From Amphiplicatus metriothermophilus (GTDB lineage Bacteria; Pseudomonadota; Alphaproteobacteria; Caulobacterales; Parvularculaceae), in the NCBI RefSeq assembly GCF_900199215.1, contig NZ_FZQA01000001.1, positions 62,001-126,000 on the forward strand: a stretch of 64,000 nucleotides of DNA, read 5' to 3'. Position numbers and translations under genes: made by a program. The notes under the pieces are model-generated. The model searched no databases, had not been told where the DNA came from, and saw only the letters and a list, made by a program, of their open reading frames with translations. Below, piece by piece: positions 11,506 to 31,391 of the stretch (its first letter is position 1; each line of letters starts with the position of its first letter).

Positions 11506-11538
11506 GCGCGGACGATTCCTCGCGGAATCAGTCCGCGC
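11506..11538. terminator. long stem-loop between convergent genes
   Basis: Arms GCGCGGACGATTCC (11506-11519) and GGAATC-A-GTCCGCGC (11524-11538) form a 14-bp stem with one bulged A and a TCGC loop. It lies between the PBP stop and the ABM stop, overlapping the last codons of the latter. No U-tract follows, so it may block or stabilise transcripts rather than act as a classic terminator. Confidence 0.5.
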
Positions 11539-11866
11539 CGGGCTTCATCCTGTCCCGAGCGGGCGGCGCGAGCAGATCGACGCGCGGGGCGAGCGCCGTC
11601 TCGCCGAGATAGTCGATCACCGCCGCGCGCATGCGGCGGAAGCTTTCATGATTCATCACGCCGCTTTCCTCCACGCAGCGCCGGCGCGTCTCCTCGTCCG
11701 GCCACAGCGCGTAAGACCAGTAGACCCCGTCCGCGTCGCGATGGAGCCGCGCGCCGTAGGAGCCGCATTTCTCATGCATCAGCCGCGTGCCCTCGGCCCA
11801 GGCGACCTCGAAGGCGCGCTCCTTTCCGGGCGCGACGCGCCAGCGATAGAGATAGGCGACGGTCAT
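11528..11866 (-). CDS. ABM-like dimeric alpha/beta-barrel protein
   Basis: A 112-residue protein that begins with MTVAYLYRWRVAPGKERAFEVAW, the beta-alpha start of antibiotic-biosynthesis-monooxygenase (ABM) or related ferredoxin-like dimer proteins. YGARLHRDADGVYWSYALW supplies the later strands. The substrate cannot be inferred. It is convergent with the PBP gene and lies just beside the AT-rich acyltransferase gene; its own base composition is that of the host. Confidence 0.7.
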   Translation of the reverse strand: MTVAYLYRWRVAPGKERAFEVAWAEGTRLMHEKCGSYGARLHRDADGVYWSYALWPDEETRRRCVEESGVMNHESFRRMRAAVIDYLGETALAPRVDLLAPPARDRMKPGAD

Positions 11867-11897
11867 GACGCCCCTAGTGCTGTTAGTCGATCAAGCG

Positions 11898-12992
11898 CTA
11901 TGCGCACGCTTCAGATCGAGACTTATGAACGATATACGACTTTCGGAGTTTCAGAAACGGTCGTTCTATAAGGTGGAAGCTTAAAAAGCCGGGAATGATC
12001 ATTAGAGGAAATAGAAGCAACGCCCATATCGTTGCAATATAAAAGTTCGAAATATCCATAATATTGTTATGTATAAATTCAGCAGCATAAAATACAAAGA
12101 AGAAATGCAACAAGTATATCGAGTACGAGAACTCGCCGAGCTTGCTGATAAAGCCCGAAAGCCCTTTTCGAGATGGCGAAAACGATCCATCGTACCAAGA
12201 GATCGCCAGGGCGTAAAATGCGCCTTCAATTGTCGGCATCACTATCCACAACGGGCTAGGAGAAGGATAAACGGGCGACTTATAAAAGCCGCCGCCCGCA
12301 TCGAACGCCCAGTAAAAAGAACTAAAAATAATAAACGCAAAGAGCATTATAGCATGCTTGCCCTTCACATAATATTGGTATTTTGCGGCTATAATTCCAA
12401 GCATAAACTGATCTAATCGACCAAATATGTACCAATAAGCGGCAGTTTGAACTTCTCCATATACTGCATATATAATAGCGCGTAGAATTATAGCTGATAA
12501 TATAACAGAAGCCCCATATATTATATTTTTTCTAGTCAAAGCCAGCAGAACTGGAAGTAGTACGTAAAAGTGAAACTCTACTGTTATTGACCACCCCCCG
12601 TTCGGTAGCGTATTTTTAATTATGCCGTAAAATATGCGTAGAGCGTAGTAGGCAAGATCCTCTCCTATAATCGCCTTCTTAACACCAATTATAGATACAA
12701 CAAATACCAATAGAGGCAACAAGCGAATTGCTCTATTAAAAAGAAATTCTCTATAGTTGATCCCTCTACCGTCGAGCAGTTTTGCGAACAAGAACCCGCT
12801 TAATGTCATAAACAATGCTACGCCTGTATGCCCTTCATCAAGCAGAGCAAGAGGAAAAAGCGCAGGCGCCCCCTCAAAGGGAACCGGATTGCCTGAATAG
12901 CCATGTATGAAATGCCACCCGAACACGAGGAAGGCGGCTGCTGCACGAACATGGTCAAGCGCTACATAATGAACGCCAGAGGAGGATCGCAT
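11898..12992 (-). CDS. acyltransferase family 3 (OafA/YrhL-like) membrane protein, AT-rich
   Basis: A 364-residue integral membrane acyltransferase with about ten helices. Family marks are LDHVRAAAAFLVFGWHF at residues ~12-28 (catalytic His of the R/H motif), GVALFMTLSGFLFAKLL, FLFNRAIRLLPLL, WSITVEFHFYVLLPVLL, FGRLDQFMLGIIAA and a C-terminal ERPFLKLRK. Such enzymes O-acetylate or succinylate polysaccharides, LPS or lipids. The gene and its 3' and 5' flanks are about 40% GC by eye against near 70% around it, with A/T-ending codons, so it is almost certainly acquired recently. It ends ~30 bp from the ABM gene and begins ~85 bp from mccA. Confidence 0.9.
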   Translation of the reverse strand: MRSSSGVHYVALDHVRAAAAFLVFGWHFIHGYSGNPVPFEGAPALFPLALLDEGHTGVALFMTLSGFLFAKLLDGRGINYREFLFNRAIRLLPLLVFVVSIIGVKKAIIGEDLAYYALRIFYGIIKNTLPNGGWSITVEFHFYVLLPVLLALTRKNIIYGASVILSAIILRAIIYAVYGEVQTAAYWYIFGRLDQFMLGIIAAKYQYYVKGKHAIMLFAFIIFSSFYWAFDAGGGFYKSPVYPSPSPLWIVMPTIEGAFYALAISWYDGSFSPSRKGLSGFISKLGEFSYSIYLLHFFFVFYAAEFIHNNIMDISNFYIATIWALLLFPLMIIPGFLSFHLIERPFLKLRKSYIVHKSRSEACA

Positions 12993-13078
12993 CGCAGTGA
13001 CGTCTTGATCTGATTCTTTTCATTTTAAATGCACAAATCTTATAATAAATCACGAAGACCTGAAAAGTCTACTATAAA

Positions 13079-15103
13079 TCACTCCGCCTCTTCGAACTCG
13101 ACCAGCAGGTCGCCTTCCTTCACCTGATCGCCGGGCCGGAAGCGGAACGCCTTCACGACGCCGTCGACGGGCGCCTTGACGGCGTGCTCCATTTTCATCG
13201 CCTCCATGACGAGCAGGGTGTCGCCGGCCTTGACCGCCGCGCCCGGCTTGGCGGCGAGCATGGCGACCACGCCGGGCATGGGCGCGGCGAGCGAGCCTTC
13301 CGCCGAGTGATGGCTCGCCAGGCCGATCAGCGGATCGGGGAAGGAAACGTCCCAATGATCCGCGCCGATCCACACCCGAAGCCCGGCGCCGTGCGGGGCG
13401 GCCTCGGCCTCGAATGTTCGTCCGTCTACGGTCATTCTGACGCCGCGCGCGGTCGGCTCGCCGGCGAAGGAGAAGCGAACGGGCTCGCCCGCGGGCGCGC
13501 CTTCGCGGCGCGCCGCGGCGCCGGCGTCGGGCTCGATCACGACGTCCACTTCGCCGCCGTCATAGAGGAGCCGCGCGAGCGCCGGCTTGCCGTCGAGGTC
13601 GATCCAGTAGGCGGCCTTCGCCGGCTTGTTCAGCCGAAAGCCCGTGAGACGCTCCCACGGGTCCGGGCCGGCGCCCTGGCGCGCTTCGAGATGGCGCAGA
13701 AGCAGCGCCGCCGCGAGGACGCGCGCGTCGAGCGGCGGACGGGCGAGCAGGCTCTCGCGCCGCTCCTCAATCAGCCGCGTCGAGACGTCGCCGGCGGCGA
13801 AACATTCATCCGTACACAGCGCATGGAGAAACCGCGCGTTGGTCTCCGGCCCGGCGACGCGCACGGCGCGAAGCGCGGCGCCGAGGCGCGCCAGCGCCTG
13901 CGCGCGCGTATCGCCATGCGCGACGATCTTGGCGATCATCGGATCGTACCAGGGCGTGACGTCCATGCCCTCCTCGACGCCGGAATCGACGCGCGCGAGA
14001 TTTTCCGGCAGGCAAAGCCGGGTCAGGGTTCCGATCGAAGGCGCGAAGTTCTGATCTGGATTTTCCGCATAGAGACGGGCTTCGAAAGCGTGCCCGCGCT
14101 CGACGATCTCCTCCTGCCTCAGCGGCAGGGGTTCGCCGGCGGCGACGCGAAACTGCCATTCGACGAGGTCGAGGCCGGTGATCGCCTCGGTCACGGGATG
14201 CTCGACCTGCAGGCGGGTGTTCATTTCCATGAAATAGACGCCGTCCGAGTCCGGATCGTAAAGGAACTCGACCGTGCCCGCCCCGACATAATCGACCGCG
14301 CGCGACGCGTTGACGCCGGCTTCGAGCAGCTTCGCGCGCGCCGCGGCCGGCAGGCCCGGCGCCGGCGCCTCCTCGATGATCTTCTGGTGGCGGCGCTGGG
14401 CGGAGCAGTCGCGCTCGAACAGATGGACGACGTTCCCGCGCCTGTCGCCGAAAACCTGCACCTCCACATGACGCGGACGGACGAGATACTTCTCGACCAG
14501 AAAGCGGTCGTCGCCGAAGGCGGATTTCGCCTCGCGCTTCGCCGAGGCGAGCGCGTCTTCCAGATCGGCCTCGCGCTCGACCAGGCGCATCCCCTTGCCG
14601 CCGCCGCCCGCCGCGGCCTTCAGGAGCACCGGATAGCCGACGCGCCGGGCCTCGCGCCGGAAGGTCTCGGGCGACTGATCCGCGCCCTGATAGCCCGGCA
14701 GGACCGGCACCCCGGCTTTCTGCATCAGATCCTTCGCCGCCGATTTCGACCCCATGGCGCGGATCGAGGCGGGCCCGGGCCCGATGAAGACGATGCCCGC
14801 CGCCTCGAGCGCCTCGGCGAAATCGGCGTTTTCGGACAGGAACCCGTAGCCGGGATGGACCGCCTCGGCGCCGGTCGCGCGCGCGGCCTCGACGATGCGC
14901 CCGATCTTCAGATAGCTCTCGGCGGGCGCCGGCGGGCCGATATGGACCGCCTCGTCGCAGGCCCTGACATGCGGCGCGGCTTTGTCCGCATCCGAATAGA
15001 CCGCAACCGTTTCGATTCCCATCCGCCGCGCCGTGCGCGCGACGCGCACGGCGATCTCTCCGCGATTGGCGATGAGGATTTTCTTGAACATCTGTCCGCT
15101 CAC
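13079..15103 (-). CDS. mccA: 3-methylcrotonyl-CoA carboxylase alpha (biotin) subunit
   Basis: A 674-residue biotin-dependent carboxylase subunit. The N-terminal biotin carboxylase begins FKKILIANRGEIAVRVARTA; its ATP-grasp loop is GGGGKGMR and its carboxylase signature MEMNTRLQVEHPVTE. The C-terminal biotinyl domain ends with VMEAMKMEHAV, biotin on K637. With mccB in the same cluster it should carboxylate 3-methylcrotonyl-CoA in leucine breakdown; propionyl- or geranyl-CoA carboxylase are weaker alternatives. I take GTG 15103, which forms a GTGA overlap with the preceding GNAT gene; ATG 15091 is a possible start. Confidence 0.9.
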   Translation of the reverse strand: MSGQMFKKILIANRGEIAVRVARTARRMGIETVAVYSDADKAAPHVRACDEAVHIGPPAPAESYLKIGRIVEAARATGAEAVHPGYGFLSENADFAEALEAAGIVFIGPGPASIRAMGSKSAAKDLMQKAGVPVLPGYQGADQSPETFRREARRVGYPVLLKAAAGGGGKGMRLVEREADLEDALASAKREAKSAFGDDRFLVEKYLVRPRHVEVQVFGDRRGNVVHLFERDCSAQRRHQKIIEEAPAPGLPAAARAKLLEAGVNASRAVDYVGAGTVEFLYDPDSDGVYFMEMNTRLQVEHPVTEAITGLDLVEWQFRVAAGEPLPLRQEEIVERGHAFEARLYAENPDQNFAPSIGTLTRLCLPENLARVDSGVEEGMDVTPWYDPMIAKIVAHGDTRAQALARLGAALRAVRVAGPETNARFLHALCTDECFAAGDVSTRLIEERRESLLARPPLDARVLAAALLLRHLEARQGAGPDPWERLTGFRLNKPAKAAYWIDLDGKPALARLLYDGGEVDVVIEPDAGAAARREGAPAGEPVRFSFAGEPTARGVRMTVDGRTFEAEAAPHGAGLRVWIGADHWDVSFPDPLIGLASHHSAEGSLAAPMPGVVAMLAAKPGAAVKAGDTLLVMEAMKMEHAVKAPVDGVVKAFRFRPGDQVKEGDLLVEFEEAE

Positions 15104-22103: not shown

Positions 22104-25070
22104 TCAGAACGTCATGCCCACGCCGAAGCCCCAGCGGCGCGGCTCGAGGATGAACAGGTTCTTGCTTGTGCCCGAGCTCTGGTCGCCGCGATAGATGCCG
22201 GTGACCGCGTCGTTGTCGGTCACGTTCTGCATGAAGAACCGCACATGCCAGTTTCCGTCCGTGGGCGCGAAACGAAGCTGCGCGTTGAGATAGGCGTAGC
22301 CGTCGACGCGGTCCTGCTCGGTGTTGAACAGGGTCGTGTACATCTCCGACTGGTAATAGGCGTCGACGCGCGGGGTCAGCGTGTAGCGCCCGCCGCTCAC
22401 CGGAATGTCGTACTGCACGCCGCCGGCGATCTTGAACTCCGGCGCGCCGAGCAGCTTGTTGCCTTCAAGGTCCTGCTCGATCCCGCCGACGACGGCGTAG
22501 GACCCGCCGGTGAGCGCGTTGATCGTGGCGATGTTGCCTTCCAGCGAGGAGCAGACCGAGAAGGGCGACGCGATCAGCCCGTCGAGCGCCGGCACGCCGG
22601 TCGGCGTTCCGCCGTTCGCCAGCAGCAGCGGGCCGTCGCCGGCGCCGCGGGTGACGACGCAGTTCGAGCCGGCGATGATGTCGGCGACGAGCTCGACGTC
22701 CGTGCGGCCGGCCGTGGGATTATGCGGATCGAAAGCCGAGAACTCGCCCACCTCGGTGTTGAGATAGGACGCGTTCATGTTGAACGTCAGCGCGTCGATC
22801 GGGCGCCAGACGAACTCGCCCTCGAGGCCCCAGATCGTCGCGTCGACATTGTCGTTGATCGACGTGCGCGAGACGATCCGCGACACCTGCAGGCCGGAAT
22901 AGTCGTAATAGAAGCCGGTCAGGTTCGCCATCAGGCGCCCGTTCGCCAGGGTCGACTTCACGCCCGCTTCATAGGCGTTGATGACCTCCGGCTCGAAGGT
23001 CAGCGACACGCCCGGAACCAGCGTGCGCGGGTTGAACCCGCCGGGCTTGAAGCCGCGCGTCCAGGACGCGTAGAACTGCGCATTGTCCGTAGGCGTCCAT
23101 TGCAGCACGGCGCGGCCGGTGGTCGAGTCGAAATCGTCCTCGATGACCCGGAAGTCGTTGACCGCGCCCGGCGTGCCTTCATTGAGCTCGTCGGCGTCGA
23201 GCAGATCGCGCACCGACGGCGTGCCGAGCGGCACGACGGGCGGAACGCCCGCCGGCAGCGTTCCGCTGATGAGCGCGATGAAGGAGTCCAGCAGGTCGCC
23301 CCTGTCGCGCAGGCCCTTGGTGTCCCAATTGTGGCGGACGCCGCCGGTCAGCTTCAGCGTGTCGGTGATGTCGAAATAGACTTCGCCGAAGACGGACGTC
23401 GAATCGAGGAAGTTGTCGTCGGTGTCGTTGAAGAAATAGGGCTTGTAGAAACCGAACCCTTGCGCGGCCGCCGCCGCGCTCGCCGCAGCCGCCGCGGCCG
23501 CCGCGTCGGCCGGCGATCCGCCGCTGGCGAGCACCGCCGCCGCCGCCGCATCGGCCGCTCCGCCCATCGCCGTCAGCGTGCCGCCGACGAGAGCGAGATA
23601 GTCGAGGCTCGTCGAGGCCACGGCGTAGTCGGCGAAGCCGTTCGATTCGATGCGGTTCGCGCCGATCAGGAAGTTCAGCGGCCCGTCGAAATCGGTGTTC
23701 ACGATGCCTTCCACCGACCAGTAGTCGCTCTCGCCGATCGACAGGTCGATCGCCTGATAGCGGTTCGAGCGCGACTGCACATGGCCGCCGATGACGCCGA
23801 CGAGGCCGTTATTGGGGCCTTCGATGCCGAGGTCGAAATCGGAGACCGGGAACATGCCGTCGGAGTAAAGCGCGAACACGCCGGGCATGGTCGCCAGCGC
23901 CGCGGGAACCGTCAGCTCGGGCCCCACGCCGCCGTCGAAATCCGTCCGCGTGGCGATCTTCGAATTGCCCCAGCCGGCGTTGATCTTCACCGAGAAATTC
24001 TCGAAGTCGTGCTTGGCGTTGAGAAGGAACACCGTCTCCTCGGCGTCGTATTTCGGCGTGGTGTCCATCGCCACCTGGCGCAGGCCGTCGGGCTGCGGCT
24101 CGCCCGCGACCGGGCCGCCGGCGAGCGAGAACAGGCCGAACGGCGCCGTCGACGGGCCGAAGATCAGCCCGAAGGTCTCCGCCGAAACGTTCGAGGCGAT
24201 GGTGCCGCGCAGATCGACGCCGTCGAAACGGCGCGGCCCGTTCGGATCGCAGCCGAGCAGCGGCTGCAGCGGGCCGGCGTTGCAGGACTGCTTCTGCCAG
24301 CGCGCGCGATTGTCCTCCTCGCGCATGTAGCTCGCCGTGAAGTCGATCGTCGTGTCGTCGGTGGCGAGCCAGCGCGCCGAACCGCGCAGGGCGTAGATGT
24401 CGCGGTCGTCGATGTCCTCGCCGGTCCACACGTTCTCGGTGTAGCCGTCGCGCTGGATGGTCGTGCCGGCCAGGCGCACCGCGAGCGTGTCGGCGAGCGG
24501 CACGTTGACCGCGCCGTGCACCTTCACCGAGTCGTAATTGCCGTATTCGGCGTCGACATAGCCTTCCACCTGATCGGGGTTGGCCTTGGCGGTGATGACG
24601 TTCATCACCCCGCCGGTGGCGTTGCGGCCGAACAGCGTGCCCTGCGGCCCGCGCAGGATCTCGATCCGCTCGATGTCGAAGAACTCGGTCTCGAACAGGC
24701 GCGGAGAGCTGATGAACACGTCGTTGACATGCACCGAGACGGCGTTCTCAGAGCTCGCCGCGACGAGGAAGTTGCCGATCCCGCGGATGGAGACCGCCGA
24801 ATTGGTGAACTGGGTGCGGGAGAACTGGAAGTTCGGGATGTTGAACTGGATGTCCTGGAAGCTCTCCATCTGACGGTCCTGGAGCTCGGCCCCGTCGAAG
24901 GCCGACACCGCGATCGGCACGTCCTGGAGAGACTGTTCGGTGCGCTGCGAGGTCACGACGATTTCGTCGCGAATCGACTGCGCCATGGCGCCGCCGGCGG
25001 CGAGCGCGCCGAGCGCGACGCCCGACAGAAGACGGCCGGCGACCGAAACGAGTCCGCAAGTCTGTTTCAT
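22104..25070 (-). CDS. TonB-dependent outer-membrane receptor 1
   Basis: A 988-residue TonB-dependent receptor. Residues 1-30 are a signal peptide ending GGAMAQ, followed by a TonB-box-like DEIVVTSQR. The plug has DVPIAVSAFDGAEL, RGIGNFLVA and IEILRGPQGTLFGRNATGG. A 22-stranded barrel ends with a terminal Phe (GVGMTF). The start is ATG 25070 with GGGGTGG upstream; an in-frame ATG at 25301 is too far upstream. Ligand is unknown; the plug resembles receptors for large organic compounds rather than classical siderophore ones. Residues ~501-536 are an odd Ala-rich insert in the barrel. Confidence 0.92.
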   Translation of the reverse strand: MKQTCGLVSVAGRLLSGVALGALAAGGAMAQSIRDEIVVTSQRTEQSLQDVPIAVSAFDGAELQDRQMESFQDIQFNIPNFQFSRTQFTNSAVSIRGIGNFLVAASSENAVSVHVNDVFISSPRLFETEFFDIERIEILRGPQGTLFGRNATGGVMNVITAKANPDQVEGYVDAEYGNYDSVKVHGAVNVPLADTLAVRLAGTTIQRDGYTENVWTGEDIDDRDIYALRGSARWLATDDTTIDFTASYMREEDNRARWQKQSCNAGPLQPLLGCDPNGPRRFDGVDLRGTIASNVSAETFGLIFGPSTAPFGLFSLAGGPVAGEPQPDGLRQVAMDTTPKYDAEETVFLLNAKHDFENFSVKINAGWGNSKIATRTDFDGGVGPELTVPAALATMPGVFALYSDGMFPVSDFDLGIEGPNNGLVGVIGGHVQSRSNRYQAIDLSIGESDYWSVEGIVNTDFDGPLNFLIGANRIESNGFADYAVASTSLDYLALVGGTLTAMGGAADAAAAAVLASGGSPADAAAAAAAASAAAAAQGFGFYKPYFFNDTDDNFLDSTSVFGEVYFDITDTLKLTGGVRHNWDTKGLRDRGDLLDSFIALISGTLPAGVPPVVPLGTPSVRDLLDADELNEGTPGAVNDFRVIEDDFDSTTGRAVLQWTPTDNAQFYASWTRGFKPGGFNPRTLVPGVSLTFEPEVINAYEAGVKSTLANGRLMANLTGFYYDYSGLQVSRIVSRTSINDNVDATIWGLEGEFVWRPIDALTFNMNASYLNTEVGEFSAFDPHNPTAGRTDVELVADIIAGSNCVVTRGAGDGPLLLANGGTPTGVPALDGLIASPFSVCSSLEGNIATINALTGGSYAVVGGIEQDLEGNKLLGAPEFKIAGGVQYDIPVSGGRYTLTPRVDAYYQSEMYTTLFNTEQDRVDGYAYLNAQLRFAPTDGNWHVRFFMQNVTDNDAVTGIYRGDQSSGTSKNLFILEPRRWGFGVGMTF

Positions 25071-25558
25071 GGATCCACCCCTTGTTTGCCGCCCCTTTGC
25101 GCTGCGGGGCGCCTGGTCGGCCGATGTCGTTGCGCGCATCCGCCCTCGCTCAATCATTCGCGCGTCTACACCGTGCAGTCCAGCGAGGGCTTCAGTCGAA
25201 AAAGACGGCGACCCGGAAGCCGTTACAATTTTACAACAATCGCGCGGCGCCAGGCGCGCCGGTTTGAGCGTTGTGCGTCGCAGCATCGCGGCTCTTTCCA
25301 CAATCTCGTCTTTTGAGGCTACGGCGAAGCCCTTAACGGGCGATTAACCATGGATTCCATCGGTTACGGATTAATGACGCCCGCGAGCGAGCGGCGACCG
25401 ACTCCCGCCCCGCTTGGCGAAAGTCATGCGCGCCGGGAGCGCCCGGAAAATCGCGCGCGGAGACCGTCCGTGCGCGCCTCTTCTCCCTTCGGCAGGCCGC
25501 GCCCGCGGGACCGGAGAGCGCCGAACTCCCGAATGGCGAGCGCCAAACCAATTGACTT
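25071..25558. other. non-coding stretch upstream of TonB receptor 1
   Basis: About 490 bp with no gene I can support on either strand. It should contain the receptor 1 promoter (AT-richer patch ACAATTTTACAACAATCG near 25225-25243). Remaining short open frames have Arg/Pro-rich translations typical of chance frames in high-GC DNA. It ends at the left island repeat. Confidence 0.5.
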
Positions 25559-25576
25559 TATTAGCGAATGGCGCGC
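25559..25576. repeat. left attachment-site repeat (attL-like)
   Basis: TATTAGCGAATGGCGCGC, identical over 18 bp to 30153-30170, where it covers the CCA end of tRNA-Arg and ten bases beyond. The match breaks on both sides, defining an exact direct repeat about 4.6 kb apart. This is the expected scar of site-specific integration at a tRNA 3' end. Confidence 0.75.
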
Positions 25577-26006
25577 GGCGGGCGGCGAAACCGCGAACTG
25601 GAGACTTATTATATCTTATTGATTTTGCTCGACAAAATCTTCGAACCACCTTGGCGATACAGTTCAGGGCGACGCGCGCGCACAGGCGAGGCTTTCAGCC
25701 GCGGCGTCGCAGCCATGACGGCGATTCCGCCTCACGCGACGCTCTTGCCGCCGCCAGCCATTTGAATCGATTTATCTTTTTTGGTTTGGAGGAGCGCTTT
25801 CCCTCATGAGAAGGGAGCCCCGGCTCACGGACGCGCCTTGCGGCGATAATTCGAAGAAGCAGCCGCCGCACAGCTTTGCGGCGGAGCCCCTCGCGCCGGG
25901 CGCGGAGCCAGCCTGTCGCAGACCTTCATCGACGATCAGAGCGTCAACACGGCCGAGGCCGACGAGCTGCGCGGCGCGCAAGCCTTATGAAGTTCGAAGC
26001 CGACTC
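25577..26006. other. island left end without an intact gene
   Basis: No complete gene. The plus frame ending at 25984 encodes a start-less ~50-residue tail, ...SLSQTFIDDQSVNTAEADEL and then RGAQAL, whose residue mix looks more protein-like than its neighbours and could be the end of a deleted gene. I cannot name the family. The rest is AT-richer DNA (25600-25640, 25765-25800). Confidence 0.4.
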
Positions 26007-26888
26007 TTAACGTGAAAAACGTGCAATCGCCGACGCCTGGCAAATTTCCGCAAGGGGCGGAATTTCAATTTCGAGAACTTCCTTCTCGCCGCGCCTACTG
26101 ATTGCAAAGATGCGGCGTTCTTTTGCGTCGTCGGACCATGAAAAAGCCTGGCCTTCAGCCTCAATGGCGATCGTCGCGATGTGGACCAGGGCCGGGCCCA
26201 TTTTCGGCTTCGCGAGCACATACATTTCCGGCAGGTCGTGCCCGAGCACATAGAGGTGGCCGTCGGGGCCGACCGCTCCGCCCGACGCGCCGTAAGGCGC
26301 CATGCGATCGAGAATGGCGGCGGGATACAGCCAGCCGCCATTGCGCCGCCATCCGGCGTCGAAAGCGACGACATTCGAATAGCGGTTATCCTTGTACGGC
26401 AGGCCGCCCGGCTTTCCATAATGGGTGAACCCGGCGATCCAGCCCTCAGCGGTCCTGTCGAACCAGGTGAGCGACCCTTCTTCGGTCAGCCCAAAACTGT
26501 GAGAGGCGACGGGCTCGAGCGTGTCCGCATCGAAAATCTCAATGGACGATCCCATCGGCGTCTGCGGATAATTGGAATTGGCGCAATAGAGTAGGCCGCT
26601 CTCATGATAGCAACTGTTTATGTGGCGCACGAGGCCGGCGTTCTCGCCCGACCAGCGCCGCACGAGCGCGCCGGTCCGGCGATCATGCTTGGCGATTACC
26701 GAGTTGTCGACAGCATAAAAATGAGCTTCGTCCGCCGCCGCTCCCTGATCGGCGTCCGCCGCCGGCCATGTGCGGACGGTCGTTCCCACCAATTGCTGAG
26801 GGGCGCAGCTTTCATCGGCGGCAAATGCGCTGCGGCTCAAGGGAATGAGCGCGGCGGCGATCAAGAATGCGGCGCTGAGCCTTTCCAT
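26007..26888 (-). CDS. secreted beta-propeller-like protein, partner of TonB receptor 2
   Basis: A 293-residue exported protein. From ATG 26888 (AAAAGGAT upstream) it has a signal peptide MERLSAAFLIAAALIPLSRSAFA. The rest is a repeated-blade pattern: FYAVDNSVIAKHDRRTGALVRRW, IEIFDADTLEPVASHSFGL, SNVVAFDAGWRRNGGW and GPDGHLYVLGHDLPEMYVL. It resembles YncE/gluconolactonase-type propellers but no catalytic residues can be assigned. It lies 72 bp after the receptor gene on the same strand, separated by a strong hairpin, so it may bind or process the receptor's ligand in the periplasm. Confidence 0.7.
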   Translation of the reverse strand: MERLSAAFLIAAALIPLSRSAFAADESCAPQQLVGTTVRTWPAADADQGAAADEAHFYAVDNSVIAKHDRRTGALVRRWSGENAGLVRHINSCYHESGLLYCANSNYPQTPMGSSIEIFDADTLEPVASHSFGLTEEGSLTWFDRTAEGWIAGFTHYGKPGGLPYKDNRYSNVVAFDAGWRRNGGWLYPAAILDRMAPYGASGGAVGPDGHLYVLGHDLPEMYVLAKPKMGPALVHIATIAIEAEGQAFSWSDDAKERRIFAISRRGEKEVLEIEIPPLAEICQASAIARFSR

Positions 26889-26909
26889 ATCGCATCCTTT
26901 TCTAAAGGC

Positions 26910-26939
26910 CCGGCGGCCCTTTTGACGAAGGGCCGCCGG
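26910..26939 (-). terminator. strong hairpin between receptor 2 and propeller gene
   Basis: Arms CCGGCGGCCCTT (26910-26921) and AAGGGCCGCCGG (26928-26939), 12 bp perfect, loop TTGACG. On the minus strand it is followed by GCCTTTAG, only weakly U-rich; on the plus strand by CGTTTTC. It may attenuate read-through from receptor to propeller gene, or protect mRNA ends. Confidence 0.6.
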
Positions 26940-26960
26940 CGTTTTCACAATCTGGCGTCG

Positions 26961-29558
26961 TCAGAACCCTACGCTTGCGCCGAAGAAGAATGTCGTGCCG
27001 ACATATTCATATTCGGTGTTCCACGCAGGCCGTCCGCCTTGGAATTCCGTCGTCGGCTCGTTGTTCAAATTGACGCCCTCCACGAACAGTTTGACATTTT
27101 CGCGGACATTATAGGCGATCTTCGCATCCCACCGACCGAAGGCCCCTTGGTCGAGAACCAGGTCCGGATTGGAATTCGGGTCAGTCAGAAAGCTGTCATT
27201 GAACGCATAGCTGACCGACGCGTCGATCGGCCCTTTTTGATAGAAAACCGAAAAGGCGTAGGTCTTCTCTGCCTGACCGACGAGCGGGAGGACCTCGCCA
27301 GTCGGAAGCGTCGTCTCGCCGTCGATGAACGTCGCCGACGCCGAGGCGCCGAAACCGTCGAGCGGCGACGGCAGGAAATCGAATTGGGTCTGCCCTAGCA
27401 GCTCGATCCCCTTCAGTTCGGCCGATGCGCCGTTGATCGTCGTCTTAAGATCGAGACGCGTCAGCACCGACGTGTCGATCGCGCCGACGAGACCGCGCGC
27501 CGCGAGCGCTGCGTCCATCTCCGCCTGCGTCGTCAGCGATTCCGTGAACGGGACAAGTTCGTCGGATATATCCTTGTAGAACAGGCCGACGGAAAGCGCC
27601 GTAAAATCATTCGGATACCACTCCGCCGACAAGTCGAAGTTCCATGATGTGCGCGGACGAAGGTCCGGATTGCCGATATTGACCGTGGCGATCGGCCCGC
27701 CGTCGTCTGTCGCGGTCGAGCGCGGCGCGATGATGTCGAAATCCGGCCGGCCGAGGGCGCGCGTAACGGCTGCGCGGAAGACAAGGCTTTCATCCGGTCG
27801 GTAATTGGCGATGATCGACGGCGTCACGGTGACATAATCGCCGCCATCCTCGACGCGCGTCGCGACGCCGTTAAGCAGAAGATTGCCGCTGCTTTCGATG
27901 TCCGTCCATTCGACGCGCGCGCCCGCGATGAGTTCAAGATCGCCATACTGCTTTTCGCCCATCGCATAGCCGGCGATGATGCGCTCGCGCAGCGCGTAAT
28001 CAGCCGCATTGTCGGCGACGAAATTATCGTCGAGGTCCGCCTCGAAGAAGGAGGCGTTCGCCGGATCGGCGAAGAACGCGTTGAGCCCGTCGATATTCAT
28101 GAAGATATTGGGAACGTCGCCGGCGTCGGTGTCATTGATGAATGCCCCGTCGGTAAAGGCCGGCGAAGTTCCAAGCGTCAGCGCCGAAGCGCCCGGATTG
28201 AACCGGCGCCGCCCTTCGTCGAGAATGCGATCGGTTGAAGCGTATTTAGCGCCGGTCTTGAGATAGAAGCTGTCGTCGATGTCCCACCGCAGGTCCGCCT
28301 TGCCGGTCCAAGTGATTTCTTCAAGCGCGCGATCGAAGAAACGGACCCGCCGCAAGCCGAACAGCGAAGGATCTTGCCGGTCGGGCGTGCCGGCGTCCGG
28401 GGTTATGTCGACGACGTTGAGATCGTTAAGCGCCCAGGCGTTCGGCCCGAAGATGGCGGCGGAGCGAAACTCCCAGAAGTCATTTGGCTCGGAAAGGTCG
28501 TTCTCGCTGCGCTGGCCGAGAAACGTCAGCGTATAGGCGCCGAAGGTCTTTTCGCCTCCAGCCGCAATTGTGAAGAGCTCCTTGTCCGCCTTTTCAAGAC
28601 GTATGTTGGCGTTGACGCGATTCGGGCCTGACACGCCGGAGCGCCCAGTCAGAGGAACGACGCCGCTGCTGAGATTCTCCTCAAAACGGTTTCTGTGCTG
28701 GAACTCGCTCCAGTCCGCGTAAAAGCCGCGCACGAAGAATTGCGTTTCATCGTCAGGGCGGAACTCGACCGCGCCGTTGATATTGAGCCGCTCGCGGCCG
28801 ATGACGTAATAATTATTCTTGACGTTGACGGGCAGACCGATGCCGCTGCTCTCGTCCCAATCGTCCTGATAGCGGCCCTGGGCTATATATTCCCTGTCCG
28901 ACCACGACGCGCCAATGAGCCAGCCGATCGTGTCATTGGCGAGCTTGCCCGCGACCAGCGCGTCGACCGCATAAGGGTCATGGCCGCCAAAGCCCTCGTC
29001 CTTGGGACGGATTTCCTCGTAGCCGTAGCGCCCCGTCAGATAGCCGTAAAATGCGTCGTCACGGTCGAAGGGCATCGCCGTTTTGAGATTAACCGTGCCG
29101 CCGATGCCTTGCGCATCCATGTCCGGCGTCGGCGTCTTGATGACCTGGACGCCGCCGAGAACGCCGCCCGAAATCACGTCAAGCGGCGCGCCGCGCCCGC
29201 CGCCTTCCTGCTCGGGCGAACCGAGGGAGACGCCGTTTATGGCGACATTGTTGAGGCCCGGATTGACGCCGCGAATCTGGACGAAGCGTCCTTCGCCCTT
29301 CTCGACCAGCATGGTGACGCCTGGCAGGCGATTGAGCGACTCGCCGACATTCTTATCCGGCAACTGGCCGAGTTCATCGATCCCGAGCGCGTCGACGACG
29401 CGGCTATCGTCGCGTTTTTCCTCGATCGCTTTTTGACGCGAAAGCTTCGTGCCAATGACGACGATTTCATCTCGGTCGTTCGACGCATCGGTCTGGGCAT
29501 AGGCGTAAGGCGTACACAGAGCGCCCGCAGCGCCCAGCAACATAGTCTTGAATCTCAT
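26961..29558 (-). CDS. TonB-dependent outer-membrane receptor 2 (Xanthomonas/Caulobacter type)
   Basis: An 865-residue receptor with a signal peptide MRFKTMLLGAAGALCTPYAYA and then a TonB-box-like DEIVVIG. The plug start IDELGQLPDKNVGESLNRLPG is the hallmark of the TIGR01782-type receptors, often used for carbohydrates, chitin or other organics. VQIRGVNPGLNNVAINGVSL and GGTVNLKTAMPFD follow, and a full barrel ends GASVGF with terminal Phe. The start is ATG 29558; an upstream in-frame start at 29741 would precede the signal peptide. It is intact and lies inside the island with the secreted partner downstream. The ligand is unknown. Confidence 0.92.
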   Translation of the reverse strand: MRFKTMLLGAAGALCTPYAYAQTDASNDRDEIVVIGTKLSRQKAIEEKRDDSRVVDALGIDELGQLPDKNVGESLNRLPGVTMLVEKGEGRFVQIRGVNPGLNNVAINGVSLGSPEQEGGGRGAPLDVISGGVLGGVQVIKTPTPDMDAQGIGGTVNLKTAMPFDRDDAFYGYLTGRYGYEEIRPKDEGFGGHDPYAVDALVAGKLANDTIGWLIGASWSDREYIAQGRYQDDWDESSGIGLPVNVKNNYYVIGRERLNINGAVEFRPDDETQFFVRGFYADWSEFQHRNRFEENLSSGVVPLTGRSGVSGPNRVNANIRLEKADKELFTIAAGGEKTFGAYTLTFLGQRSENDLSEPNDFWEFRSAAIFGPNAWALNDLNVVDITPDAGTPDRQDPSLFGLRRVRFFDRALEEITWTGKADLRWDIDDSFYLKTGAKYASTDRILDEGRRRFNPGASALTLGTSPAFTDGAFINDTDAGDVPNIFMNIDGLNAFFADPANASFFEADLDDNFVADNAADYALRERIIAGYAMGEKQYGDLELIAGARVEWTDIESSGNLLLNGVATRVEDGGDYVTVTPSIIANYRPDESLVFRAAVTRALGRPDFDIIAPRSTATDDGGPIATVNIGNPDLRPRTSWNFDLSAEWYPNDFTALSVGLFYKDISDELVPFTESLTTQAEMDAALAARGLVGAIDTSVLTRLDLKTTINGASAELKGIELLGQTQFDFLPSPLDGFGASASATFIDGETTLPTGEVLPLVGQAEKTYAFSVFYQKGPIDASVSYAFNDSFLTDPNSNPDLVLDQGAFGRWDAKIAYNVRENVKLFVEGVNLNNEPTTEFQGGRPAWNTEYEYVGTTFFFGASVGF

Positions 29559-29761
29559 CTTAGTCCCCAAATGACCCGATGGGGCCGTTAATGCGTCGTC
29601 ATGACGGGATAGTGACGCTTGCGCGAACTTTTTTAGCGGGCGTCCTGAATCGTTCAGGCGCGGCTGGCGTGATGATTGAAGGTCTGTTCCGGACTCCATA
29701 CGGCGCAATGCTCCGCCCGGGGAAAAGCTGTCGCCTGCCATGCCCTCGACAGTTGCGCGGG

Positions 29762-30169
29762 CGGCTCGGGCACGTGAACAAGCGCCTCCGCAATCTCTTG
29801 GCCGCTATCGCCGACGGGCTCGTCAAAGAAAGCGGTCTGTTCCGTGAAGAGATGGCGGCCGCCGAGGCCGAACGCGAGAACCTCGTTCGTCTGATTGAAG
29901 CGGAGGAAGCGCGCGCATGCGCGGCGCTCAAGCCGATCGGACTAGACGAAGCCGCGATCGCGGCGCAGCGCTTGCGCCGGCTTATCCTGGAGGCGCCCGG
30001 CGCATTGAAGAAGCGCTATGTGCGCGCTTTCGTCTCTGAAATCGTCGTGGGCCGTTCGGAGATTGTCGTCGCCGACCCCCAAGACGCGCTGGCCGAAGCC
30101 GTTTCCGGCGAGACGATCGCCCATATCGCCGGCGGACCGGTTCGCAGTTTGGTATTAGCGAATGGCGCG
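29762..30169 (+). pseudogene. serine recombinase C-terminal remnant
   Basis: An open plus frame encodes only the tail of a large serine recombinase. NKRLRNLLAAIADGLVKESG is the coiled-coil after the zinc ribbon, then AAEAERENLVRLIEAEEARA, then EAPGALKKRYVRAFVSEIVV and ALAEAVSGETIAHIAGGPVRS, the usual C-terminal end. There is no resolvase catalytic domain upstream; that space is the promoter side of receptor 2. The frame runs without a stop through the tRNA gene to 30457, a known quirk of recombinases whose att site is a tRNA 3' end. It is a truncated integrase of the island. Confidence 0.75.
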
Positions 30170-30170
30170 C
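30153..30170. repeat. right attachment-site repeat (attR-like)
   Basis: Second copy of TATTAGCGAATGGCGCGC. Its bases 30163-30170 are the CCA tail, discriminator and last acceptor bases of tRNA-Arg on the minus strand, so integration left the tRNA intact. Confidence 0.75.
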
Positions 30171-30239
30171 CCGAAAGGATTCGAACCTCTGACCCCCAGA
30201 TTCGTAGTCTGGTGCTCTATCCAGCTGAGCTACGGGCGC
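30163..30239 (-). tRNA. tRNA-Arg (anticodon ACG)
   Basis: A 77-nt cloverleaf on the minus strand. Acceptor GCGCCCG pairs with CGGGCGC, followed by discriminator G and an encoded CCA. The D arm is GCTCAGCTGGATAGAGC, the anticodon stem CCAGA/TCTGG with loop CTACGAA (anticodon ACG), and the T loop TTCGAAT. It is the integration target of the adjacent island. Confidence 0.97.
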
Positions 30240-30362: not shown

Positions 30363-31391
30363 CTAGCCGCCCCGCCCGTCCTGCCGTTCGGCCTCGAAGA
30401 CGGCGCGGGCGACGGCGCGCGCCAGGCAATCGGCGGCCAGAAGCCCGACGCGCGTGAGCGTCAGCGGATCGCAGGGGCGCTCCTCGCCCGTCGCCAGCAC
30501 GAAGACCGCGTCGCCGTCGGTCGGCCCGTGGACCGGCCGGACGGCGCGGGCGAGCCCGTCCTGCGCCATGATCGCGACCCGGCGCGCGTCGGCCTGGGTC
30601 ATATCGGCCGCGACCGCGATGACGGCGATAGTCGTGTTGGCCCGCGCGCGCGCCGCGGCGCGCTTCGCGTCGGGCGGCAGATCGGGAACCGGCCGCCAGT
30701 CCGGCGCGGGCCGGGCGCCGCCGAACTCGCCGTCCTCCTCGAAAGGCCAGGCCCAGAAAGCCGCGCTCGCCGGCATTCTGACCGAGCCGAAGCTGTTGAC
30801 CGCGACGAGCGCGCCGAGGACGAGCCCGTCGTCGCAGACGTAAGAGGCCGAGCCGAGCCCGCCGGGCCCGGCCCCCGCCATCGCGCCGTAGCCCGCGCCC
30901 GCCCGGCCGAGACGGACGGGCCCGCCGTCCGCCGCCGCGCAGGCGTCGCGCCCCAGCCGACGATAGGGCGGCTCTTCGCCCCAGTCCTTGTCGCCGCCAT
31001 TGGCGAGATCGTAGAGGATCGCCGCCGGGACGATGGGCGAGGCCGGCGCGCCCGCGCCTTTCACGAGCGCGAAGCCGCGCCCGCGCGCGCCGAGCCAGGC
31101 CGCCGCGCCGTCGGCGGCGGCGAGCCCGTAAGAGGACCCGCCGCTCAAGACGATCGCGTCGGCGCGCGCGACCAGGGTCGAAGGATCGAGCAGATCGGTC
31201 TCGCGCGTGCCCGGCCCGCCGCCGCGCACGTCGCCGGCGCAGACCGCCGGCGCGGCCGGCAGCACGACGCTGACGCCGGTCTTCGCGCGCGCGTCCTGCG
31301 CCGCGCCGACGGAGATTCCCGGCACGTCCGTGATGTCGTTGCGCGGGCCCTTGCGCGCGGTCTTGCCGGTCCTGGTCGCAGCGTTCGTCAT
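30363..31391 (-). CDS. P1-family peptidase (DmpA/L-aminopeptidase-D-esterase type)
   Basis: A 342-residue N-terminal-nucleophile hydrolase. Family motifs are NDITDVPGISVGAAQD near residue 16, VLSGGSSYGLAAADGAAAWL near 80, and VLGALVAVNSFGSV where the precursor is cleaved before the catalytic Ser (N-S bond). VRPVHGPTDGDAVFVLATG is near the C-terminus. I start it at ATG 31391 although its ribosome site is poor; longer frames reach upstream but would overlap the divergent gene's promoter. It probably removes N-terminal or D-/beta-amino acids from small peptides, alongside the divergent gamma-glutamyltransferase. Confidence 0.87.
   Translation of the reverse strand: MTNAATRTGKTARKGPRNDITDVPGISVGAAQDARAKTGVSVVLPAAPAVCAGDVRGGGPGTRETDLLDPSTLVARADAIVLSGGSSYGLAAADGAAAWLGARGRGFALVKGAGAPASPIVPAAILYDLANGGDKDWGEEPPYRRLGRDACAAADGGPVRLGRAGAGYGAMAGAGPGGLGSASYVCDDGLVLGALVAVNSFGSVRMPASAAFWAWPFEEDGEFGGARPAPDWRPVPDLPPDAKRAAARARANTTIAVIAVAADMTQADARRVAIMAQDGLARAVRPVHGPTDGDAVFVLATGEERPCDPLTLTRVGLLAADCLARAVARAVFEAERQDGRGG

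Follow-up and report, generated by a model that had tools for sequence, protein, structure and literature searches.

A probable remnant of a serine-recombinase integrative unit at the 3′ end of a tRNA-Arg(ACG) gene in Amphiplicatus metriothermophilus

The 64,000-nucleotide stretch of contig NZ_FZQA01000001.1 analysed here (the window) contains a 4.6-kb segment enclosed by two copies of an 18-bp sequence, one of which runs into the 3′ end of a tRNA-Arg(ACG) gene, and the question raised by this arrangement is what kind of element placed the segment there. The near, tRNA-side copy of TATTAGCGAATGGCGCGC occupies 30153–30170 and the far copy 25559–25576, both on the plus strand. Within the window the sequence is present in exactly two copies with no third at up to three mismatches (in a shuffle control at the same tolerance, 2 of 100 shuffles reached two matches, with a mean of 0.22), and in the whole 3.16-Mb genome it was found at these two sites only, both exact, when up to two mismatches were tolerated. 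The exact sequence was absent from the 61 other family genomes searched; at up to two mismatches it is matched in 19 of the 62 family genomes, this one included, and every match outside this genome carries two mismatches. The tRNA gene, predicted by ARAGORN at 30163–30239 on the minus strand, would be the integration target whose 3′ end supplies the core of the site. Eight of the 18 bp of the near copy (30163–30170) lie inside it, as CCA end and acceptor stem, and 30153–30162 lie outside. The repetition of a tRNA 3′ end at the far end of the island, by which tRNA islands are recognized, is therefore found here over 8 bp, TGGCGCGC. The GC content of the island is 61.1%, compared with 68.2% in the left and 71.2% in the right flank, and the GC3 values of its two genes are 0.71 and 0.75, with 0.85–0.93 in four neighbouring genes and 0.75 in a fifth. 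An earlier note on this DNA had proposed the exact pair of repeats, the overlap of one copy with the CCA end and an island less GC-rich than its flanks; all three hold, the first of them across the entire genome.

What is left of a recombinase lies at the tRNA end of the segment. A plus-strand stretch (29750–30154) aligns by tblastn, at 63.5% identity, with residues 394–530 of P0005, a full-length large serine recombinase (LSR), and the last ∼137 residues remain while the catalytic domain is absent; the frame is open on the plus strand from 29579 through the tRNA, and the stump gave no Pfam match below E 0.1. P0005, encoded by locus L066, is complete, having the Resolvase, Recombinase and zinc ribbon domains (PF00239, PF07508, PF13408) that mark an autonomous LSR element, and the window unit does not have these three domains. 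Because its recombinase is cut down to the last ∼137 residues the unit is non-autonomous, and judged by its sequence it is a remnant and no member of the autonomous LSR elements. The serine-recombinase stump of the earlier note is thus confirmed, and its claim that the integrase had been lost is right for the catalytic part but not for the stump, which is itself the C-terminus of a truncated integrase.

Searching the genome collection with the stump translation returned four relatives. Close LSR relatives are located at tRNA-Arg(ACG) (L064, L088) and at tRNA-Arg(CCG) (L066, identical with L086), and in L064 (a Marinicaulis MAG) and L066 (a Parvularculaceae MAG) the recombinase ends in ‘...GPVRSLVREWRA’ and is directly followed by the antisense tRNA-Arg gene, ACG and CCG, respectively. 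The stump likewise enters the near repeat copy, so that in the window as in these relatives an attachment site coincides with the end of the recombinase gene. In the order as a whole, 56 of 398 genomes, this one included, have an LSR match at E 1e-40. We inspected the best-scoring 30 LSR loci (19 clusters at 90% identity; more matching places exist beyond these), of which 19 abut the 3′ end of an opposite-strand tRNA gene by a fixed rule, which requires the tRNA 3′ end to fall between −30 and 150 nt relative to the point where the recombinase alignment stops; L103 is a twentieth, recognized by eye. The tRNA genes at the 19 rule-based loci comprise five Arg, thirteen Ser and one Leu. The largest cluster (L105–L111 and L113–L115) consists of ten near-identical recombinases from different genomes, eight of them at tRNA-Ser genes with three anticodons, which points to recent spread and to a relaxed choice among tRNA-Ser genes. 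Among the ten remaining loci, L090 and L112 lie at, or at most 61 bases from, a contig edge, the recombinase of L087 adjoins another head arm, and that of L089 (genome G064) is followed by a tRNA-Arg sequence broken off after the anticodon region (by eye), apparently a cut tRNA copy. In addition, a fragment of the same recombinase family with an internal stop ends on tRNA-Met in L191 (G059, 11778–12426).

To delimit the core, we compared the near with the far site of 13 pairs, drawn from 12 regions, with the reservation that in G009 and in contig 128 of G001 the two sites of a pair may belong to different elements. From TGG onward the near and far sites are identical over 6–13 bp in 12 of the 13 pairs and over 0 bp in G067, and upstream of TGG the identity covers 0–3 bp in ten pairs, the exceptions being the window (10 bp), G001 (8) and G058 (6, with recombinase ends on both sides). 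These identities make TGGCGC the common part, and the ten extra letters of the window repeat are hence peculiar to its own genome. The common core of both sites appears to be TGGCGCGC, the CCA end with the acceptor stem, at 30163–30170 in the near and 25569–25576 in the far site. The two 18-bp copies are likely to mark attachment sites, and the LSR relatives terminate at such a place; the att-like repeat of the earlier note can therefore be kept, but with a core of about 8 bp rather than 18. Tail arm and core are 12 nt apart in the window, as against 10 nt in the LSR relatives found in G009, G058 and G060; short-tract conversion between the ends could possibly account for the extra 10 bp and for the spacing.

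The attP half-sites of serine integrases are symmetric, inverted arms. In the window, GGCGGGCGGCGAAACCGCGAACTGG (25577–25601, plus strand) directly follows the far repeat copy as the putative head arm (P′) of the element, and its part AAACCGCGAACTGG (25588–25601) forms an inverted repeat at 12 of 14 positions with CCGGTTCGCAGTTT (30137–30150, plus strand), the putative tail arm (P) inside the 3′ end of the LSR stump. Arms inverted around a short core are thus present, with the near-side spacing off by 2 nt. Tandem LSR elements of other genomes show what the far side looks like, that is, TGGCGC and behind it an arm whose last letters, ACTGG, reach base 33, in G060 (L087), G058 (L133) and G009 (L116, two sites). 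From these four arms, which were chosen after the common 33-nt spacing with the window had been noticed, we built a matrix with the core excluded; a fifth tandem LSR far junction (L116, 15831) is without arm and was omitted. When both strands of the window (127,952 positions) were scanned, the base after the far repeat, 25577, came first with 13.9 bits, and the runner-up scored 11.4. In ∼1 Mb of other loci, the sites above 14 bits were the four training sites, three heads at tRNA-Arg (two in G008, one in G001) and six further sites, none of them a known head. These six indicate a chance rate of ∼3 per million positions for the score alone; the window head arm convinces by lying exactly next to the repeat and not just by its score. 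Together with the LSR relatives ending on tRNA genes, the head arm at the far copy supports well the reading of the repeats as attachment sites. The same matrix gave no convincing head arm behind tRNA-Arg in 12 relatives (best 11.3 bits; G007, L029), and a direct-repeat search of 19 LSR loci was informative in L116 and L133 only, with nothing in L117, L128 and L134 and other matches of 10–13 bp that look like chance.

Between the two arms the segment carries two minus-strand genes, separated from the head arm by a stretch without evident gene (25602–26006, based on the stops in the six frames of 25550–26030). The larger gene (26961–29558) encodes a TonB-dependent receptor that matches TIGR01782 over positions 2–868 of 868 with 526.1 bits, above the curated cutoff of 310, as the earlier note had anticipated for its type. 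The smaller one (26007–26888) encodes a presumably secreted protein with a signal-peptide-like N-terminus (by eye), and it is conserved beside the receptor; it had no Pfam or PDB match that would bear out the propeller-like character suggested in the earlier note, and its single-sequence AlphaFold model (pLDDT 44) is unusable for the fold. Receptor and partner stand side by side in G004, G023 and G040, and the partner accompanies a more distant receptor (33%) in G014. Because the pair is found elsewhere in relatives, it is a self-contained module. The pair of same-genus G004 sits outside any such unit, with identities of 72% for the receptor and 57% for the partner; no tRNA and no head arm were found in the 13–15 kb surrounding the pairs of G004, G023, G040 and G014. 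Comparison of the cargo neighbours in these four genomes showed that they differ and gave no clue to the ligand; in G023 an ExbB-like gene adjoins the pair. Judged at the level of the receptor family, the two-gene module probably serves the TonB-dependent uptake of a ligand; the nutrient uptake proposed in the earlier note is likewise read from the family name.

We then compared the same place in relatives. The S58 peptidase gene (30363–31391, minus strand; PF03576) is the chromosome-side neighbour of the tRNA; it is matched in 36 of 41 genomes and adjoined by tRNA-Arg(ACG) in 16 of 20 loci scanned, this genome included in both counts, and the sequence behind the tRNA varies among the 11 relatives that were read (with the method used, no tRNA was obtained in four of 15 regions). 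An empty site with one repeat copy, as predicted in the earlier note, was not found in 62 family genomes, one per species. Nor is the island as solitary as it had seemed, since in three genomes of the same genus the same tRNA gene has head arms (two in tandem in G008, one in G001) or an LSR stump (G006). The G006 stump comprises 62 C-terminal LSR residues, shares 90% identity with the LSR of G048 (L104) and ends 3 nt from the core; farther on are encoded a HemN-like radical SAM protein, a catalase-peroxidase-type peroxidase and a MAPEG protein. The matrix found no head arm for this stump. Among 24 tRNA-Arg near junctions tested, a set that leaves out the known LSR loci L116, L133 and L186, an LSR end is present in those of the window and of G006 only. 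Taken together, these relatives show tRNA-Arg as a putative repeated docking place for such units. To the left of the island, the window has a second TonB receptor gene (22104–25070) with strong relatives in most same-genus genomes; in G006 it lies ∼5 kb from tRNA-Arg.

Head arms are also found in the family without a recombinase. A degenerate head-site pattern gave, at up to two mismatches, 36 matches in 22 of the 62 family genomes, this one included; the pattern was drawn from eight arms, that of the window among them, so that the matches to these arms exist by construction, and one match in G009 (contig 4) and two in G007 are doubtful. At exactly three mismatches there were 43 matches and a backward control had 35 at up to three, and hence only matches at up to two were used. 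In eight genomes (G053, G046, G006 on contig 15, G056, G067, G051, G008 and G001) heads lie 590–2685 bp from tRNA-Arg with no recombinase match between, where recombinase-less means no tblastn match at E 1e-8 in L028, L031 and 28 regions fetched around head matches, some of which were centred on three-mismatch matches. The G067 unit has a weak core and is placed at tRNA-Arg(CCT). Heads occur in tandem in G008, G007, G048, G052, G065 and G009, and the contents of the units differ: G007 has a beta-lactamase-family protein, G008 an Rce1-like protein with a neighbour that looks LysR-like by eye, and G046 and G001 have proteins that gave no Pfam match. In L184 (G056), a recombinase-less unit at ∼11520–13590 looks, by eye, like a run of short protein repeats that resemble one another. 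The tails of the units in L173, L184, L170, L166, L031 and L028 have, some 50 nt ahead of the core, an imperfect inverted repeat (by eye) resembling TACTTTTTCG...GGTGATCGAAAAA, which may be the tail site of a second type of recombinase.

One of these units can be followed between genera. A 590-bp unit is shared by G001 and G065, which belong to different genera, with identical ends and 93.2% identity over 590/590 bp free of gaps, and among 398 genomes the full unit occurs in these two only. In the same two genomes the S58 gene region is 68–69% identical over 410 alignable bases, and the left flanks do not match. The first 31–39 bp of the unit also match in G008 (twice), G067, G045 and G007; in G390 there is a match of 23 bp, apparently by chance. 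These comparisons are good evidence that the 590-bp unit moved with the arm as its boundary, and it would have been moved by an LSR.

From the repeats, the arms, the stump and the tRNA-end position of the LSR relatives, we infer that the 4.6-kb segment is very probably a decayed, non-autonomous integrative unit which was inserted by an LSR into the 3′ end of tRNA-Arg(ACG). The low GC content, the head arms or LSR stump at this tRNA in three same-genus genomes and the varying sequence behind the tRNA also favour this reading. In the ancestral element, the recombinase gene would have been located at the tRNA end, with its last codons forming one attP arm. Recombination of TGGCGC(GC) from attP with its identical counterpart in the CCA/acceptor end of the tRNA would have joined the recombinase tail to an intact tRNA at the near site and placed the second attP arm behind the former chromosome flank at the far site, and a later loss of the catalytic part of the recombinase would have left both arms in place. 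The unit carries the TonB receptor and its presumably secreted partner as a two-gene module. Several points speak against this reading. No empty site came to light in the 62 family genomes, the 12-nt spacing and the 10 shared bp upstream of the core are unlike a clean LSR event, the far junction at L116 15831 has no arm, and six sites other than known heads outscore the window arm. In addition, only two of the 24 tRNA-Arg near junctions have an LSR end, no head arm was found for the G006 stump, and the receptor and partner, which in G004 lie outside such units, need not be foreign cargo.

The 18-bp identity is long for a serine core, and tRNA 3′ ends are described as a usual target of tyrosine integrases in the available part of a review (PMC5704250), so that an island of a vanished tyrosine integrase with the serine stump as an unrelated passenger has to be considered. 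However, the stump terminates at the core, in the manner of the LSR relatives at tRNAs, and the far arm has its matches among the arms of LSR elements; disfavoured on both counts, this candidate is very unlikely. Less credible still, and in our view scarcely tenable, is that the repeat is accidental and the boundaries fall within ordinary chromosomal variation behind the tRNA; the region differs in each of the 11 relatives and the shuffles did reach two matches at up to three mismatches, but a pair that is unique and exact in 3.16 Mb, with an arm at the far copy and a recombinase end at the near copy, is not what chance would be expected to give. A rival of much greater weight, which we consider quite possible although somewhat short of an even chance, is that the units are still alive: LSRs would move recombinase-less head-arm units in trans, these would stack at tRNA-Arg, and the window stump would be kept for its tail arm. 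The number and spread of head sites, the units beside tRNA-Arg in eight genomes, the tandem heads and a 590-bp unit far better conserved than the S58 genes of its two hosts would all fit such a system, and so would the two independent stumps, each retaining only its arm-coding end. On the other hand, the unit-bearing genomes G007, G008, G046 and G056 are without LSR match at E 1e-40 (at most three candidates were scored per genome), several unit tails are unlike LSR-coding tails, and the head pattern is derived by sequence comparison from arms that include that of the window. As a wider and more tentative proposal, about which we are rather doubtful on balance, tRNA genes of the family might anchor a system of serine-recombinase cassettes in which units with a 33-nt, CCA-mimicking head are added serially and moved in trans, the last codons of the moving recombinases supplying the second half of the site; in that case the window unit would have been reduced to such a cassette with a site-coding recombinase end.

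Several known systems resemble parts of this picture. The pseudo-SCC elements of staphylococci are recombinase-less, have serine-recombinase sites and are stacked at the 3′ end of a gene, rlmH, by CcrA/B/C, whereas the window has a tRNA target and an LSR. Integron cassettes are small tandem units with a common site, which are handled by a tyrosine integrase through folded attC sites, in contrast to the serine recombinase, inverted arms and tRNA anchor found here. Streptococcus ICEs with serine integrases at rumA, in the available part of their description, have direct repeats of 2–21 bp with one end in the target and the other in the integrase gene, and their integration swaps the integrase 3′ end and so alters its C-terminus (PMC4701971). 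As in the window unit, the repeat lies within the 3′ end of a serine integrase; as far as that text goes, however, integration at rumA exchanges the 3′ part of a protein gene, whereas in the window the tRNA 3′ end is intact and the recombinase is truncated. CIMEs, according to the sections available of PMC5704250, have lost their integration genes and retained their att sites, and accretion proceeds by insertion at the target-gene side with stacking; the same sections give tyrosine integrases for the tRNA cases of stacking and state that site-specific serine-recombinase IMEs disrupt genes. With two cargo genes and a stump between arms and cores, the window unit has, like a CIME, lost integration and transfer genes and kept attL and attR, but it differs from the tRNA cases in those sections by its serine-recombinase remnant. 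An alphaproteobacterial parallel is the Paracoccus prophage vB_PamS_Pami6, which in the available text is the sole serine-recombinase prophage with a predicted site, a tRNA-Met gene (PMC6536676). The likeness, drawn from this description, lies in the serine recombinase and the predicted tRNA target, but vB_PamS_Pami6 is a phage. In the open-licence literature we found no description of a tRNA-ending LSR family together with recombinase-less head-arm units at tRNA-Arg.

Short cores make it difficult to recognize serine-recombinase sites from sequence. An LSR family whose genes terminate at tRNA 3′ ends reveals its own sites and both attP arms, and is a possible source of integrases for tRNA targets. 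Moreover, if the recombinase-less units move, they would constitute a tRNA-anchored equivalent of the integron that works with a serine recombinase, and their movement would help to account for the variation in gene content behind tRNA-Arg among the genomes of these bacteria.
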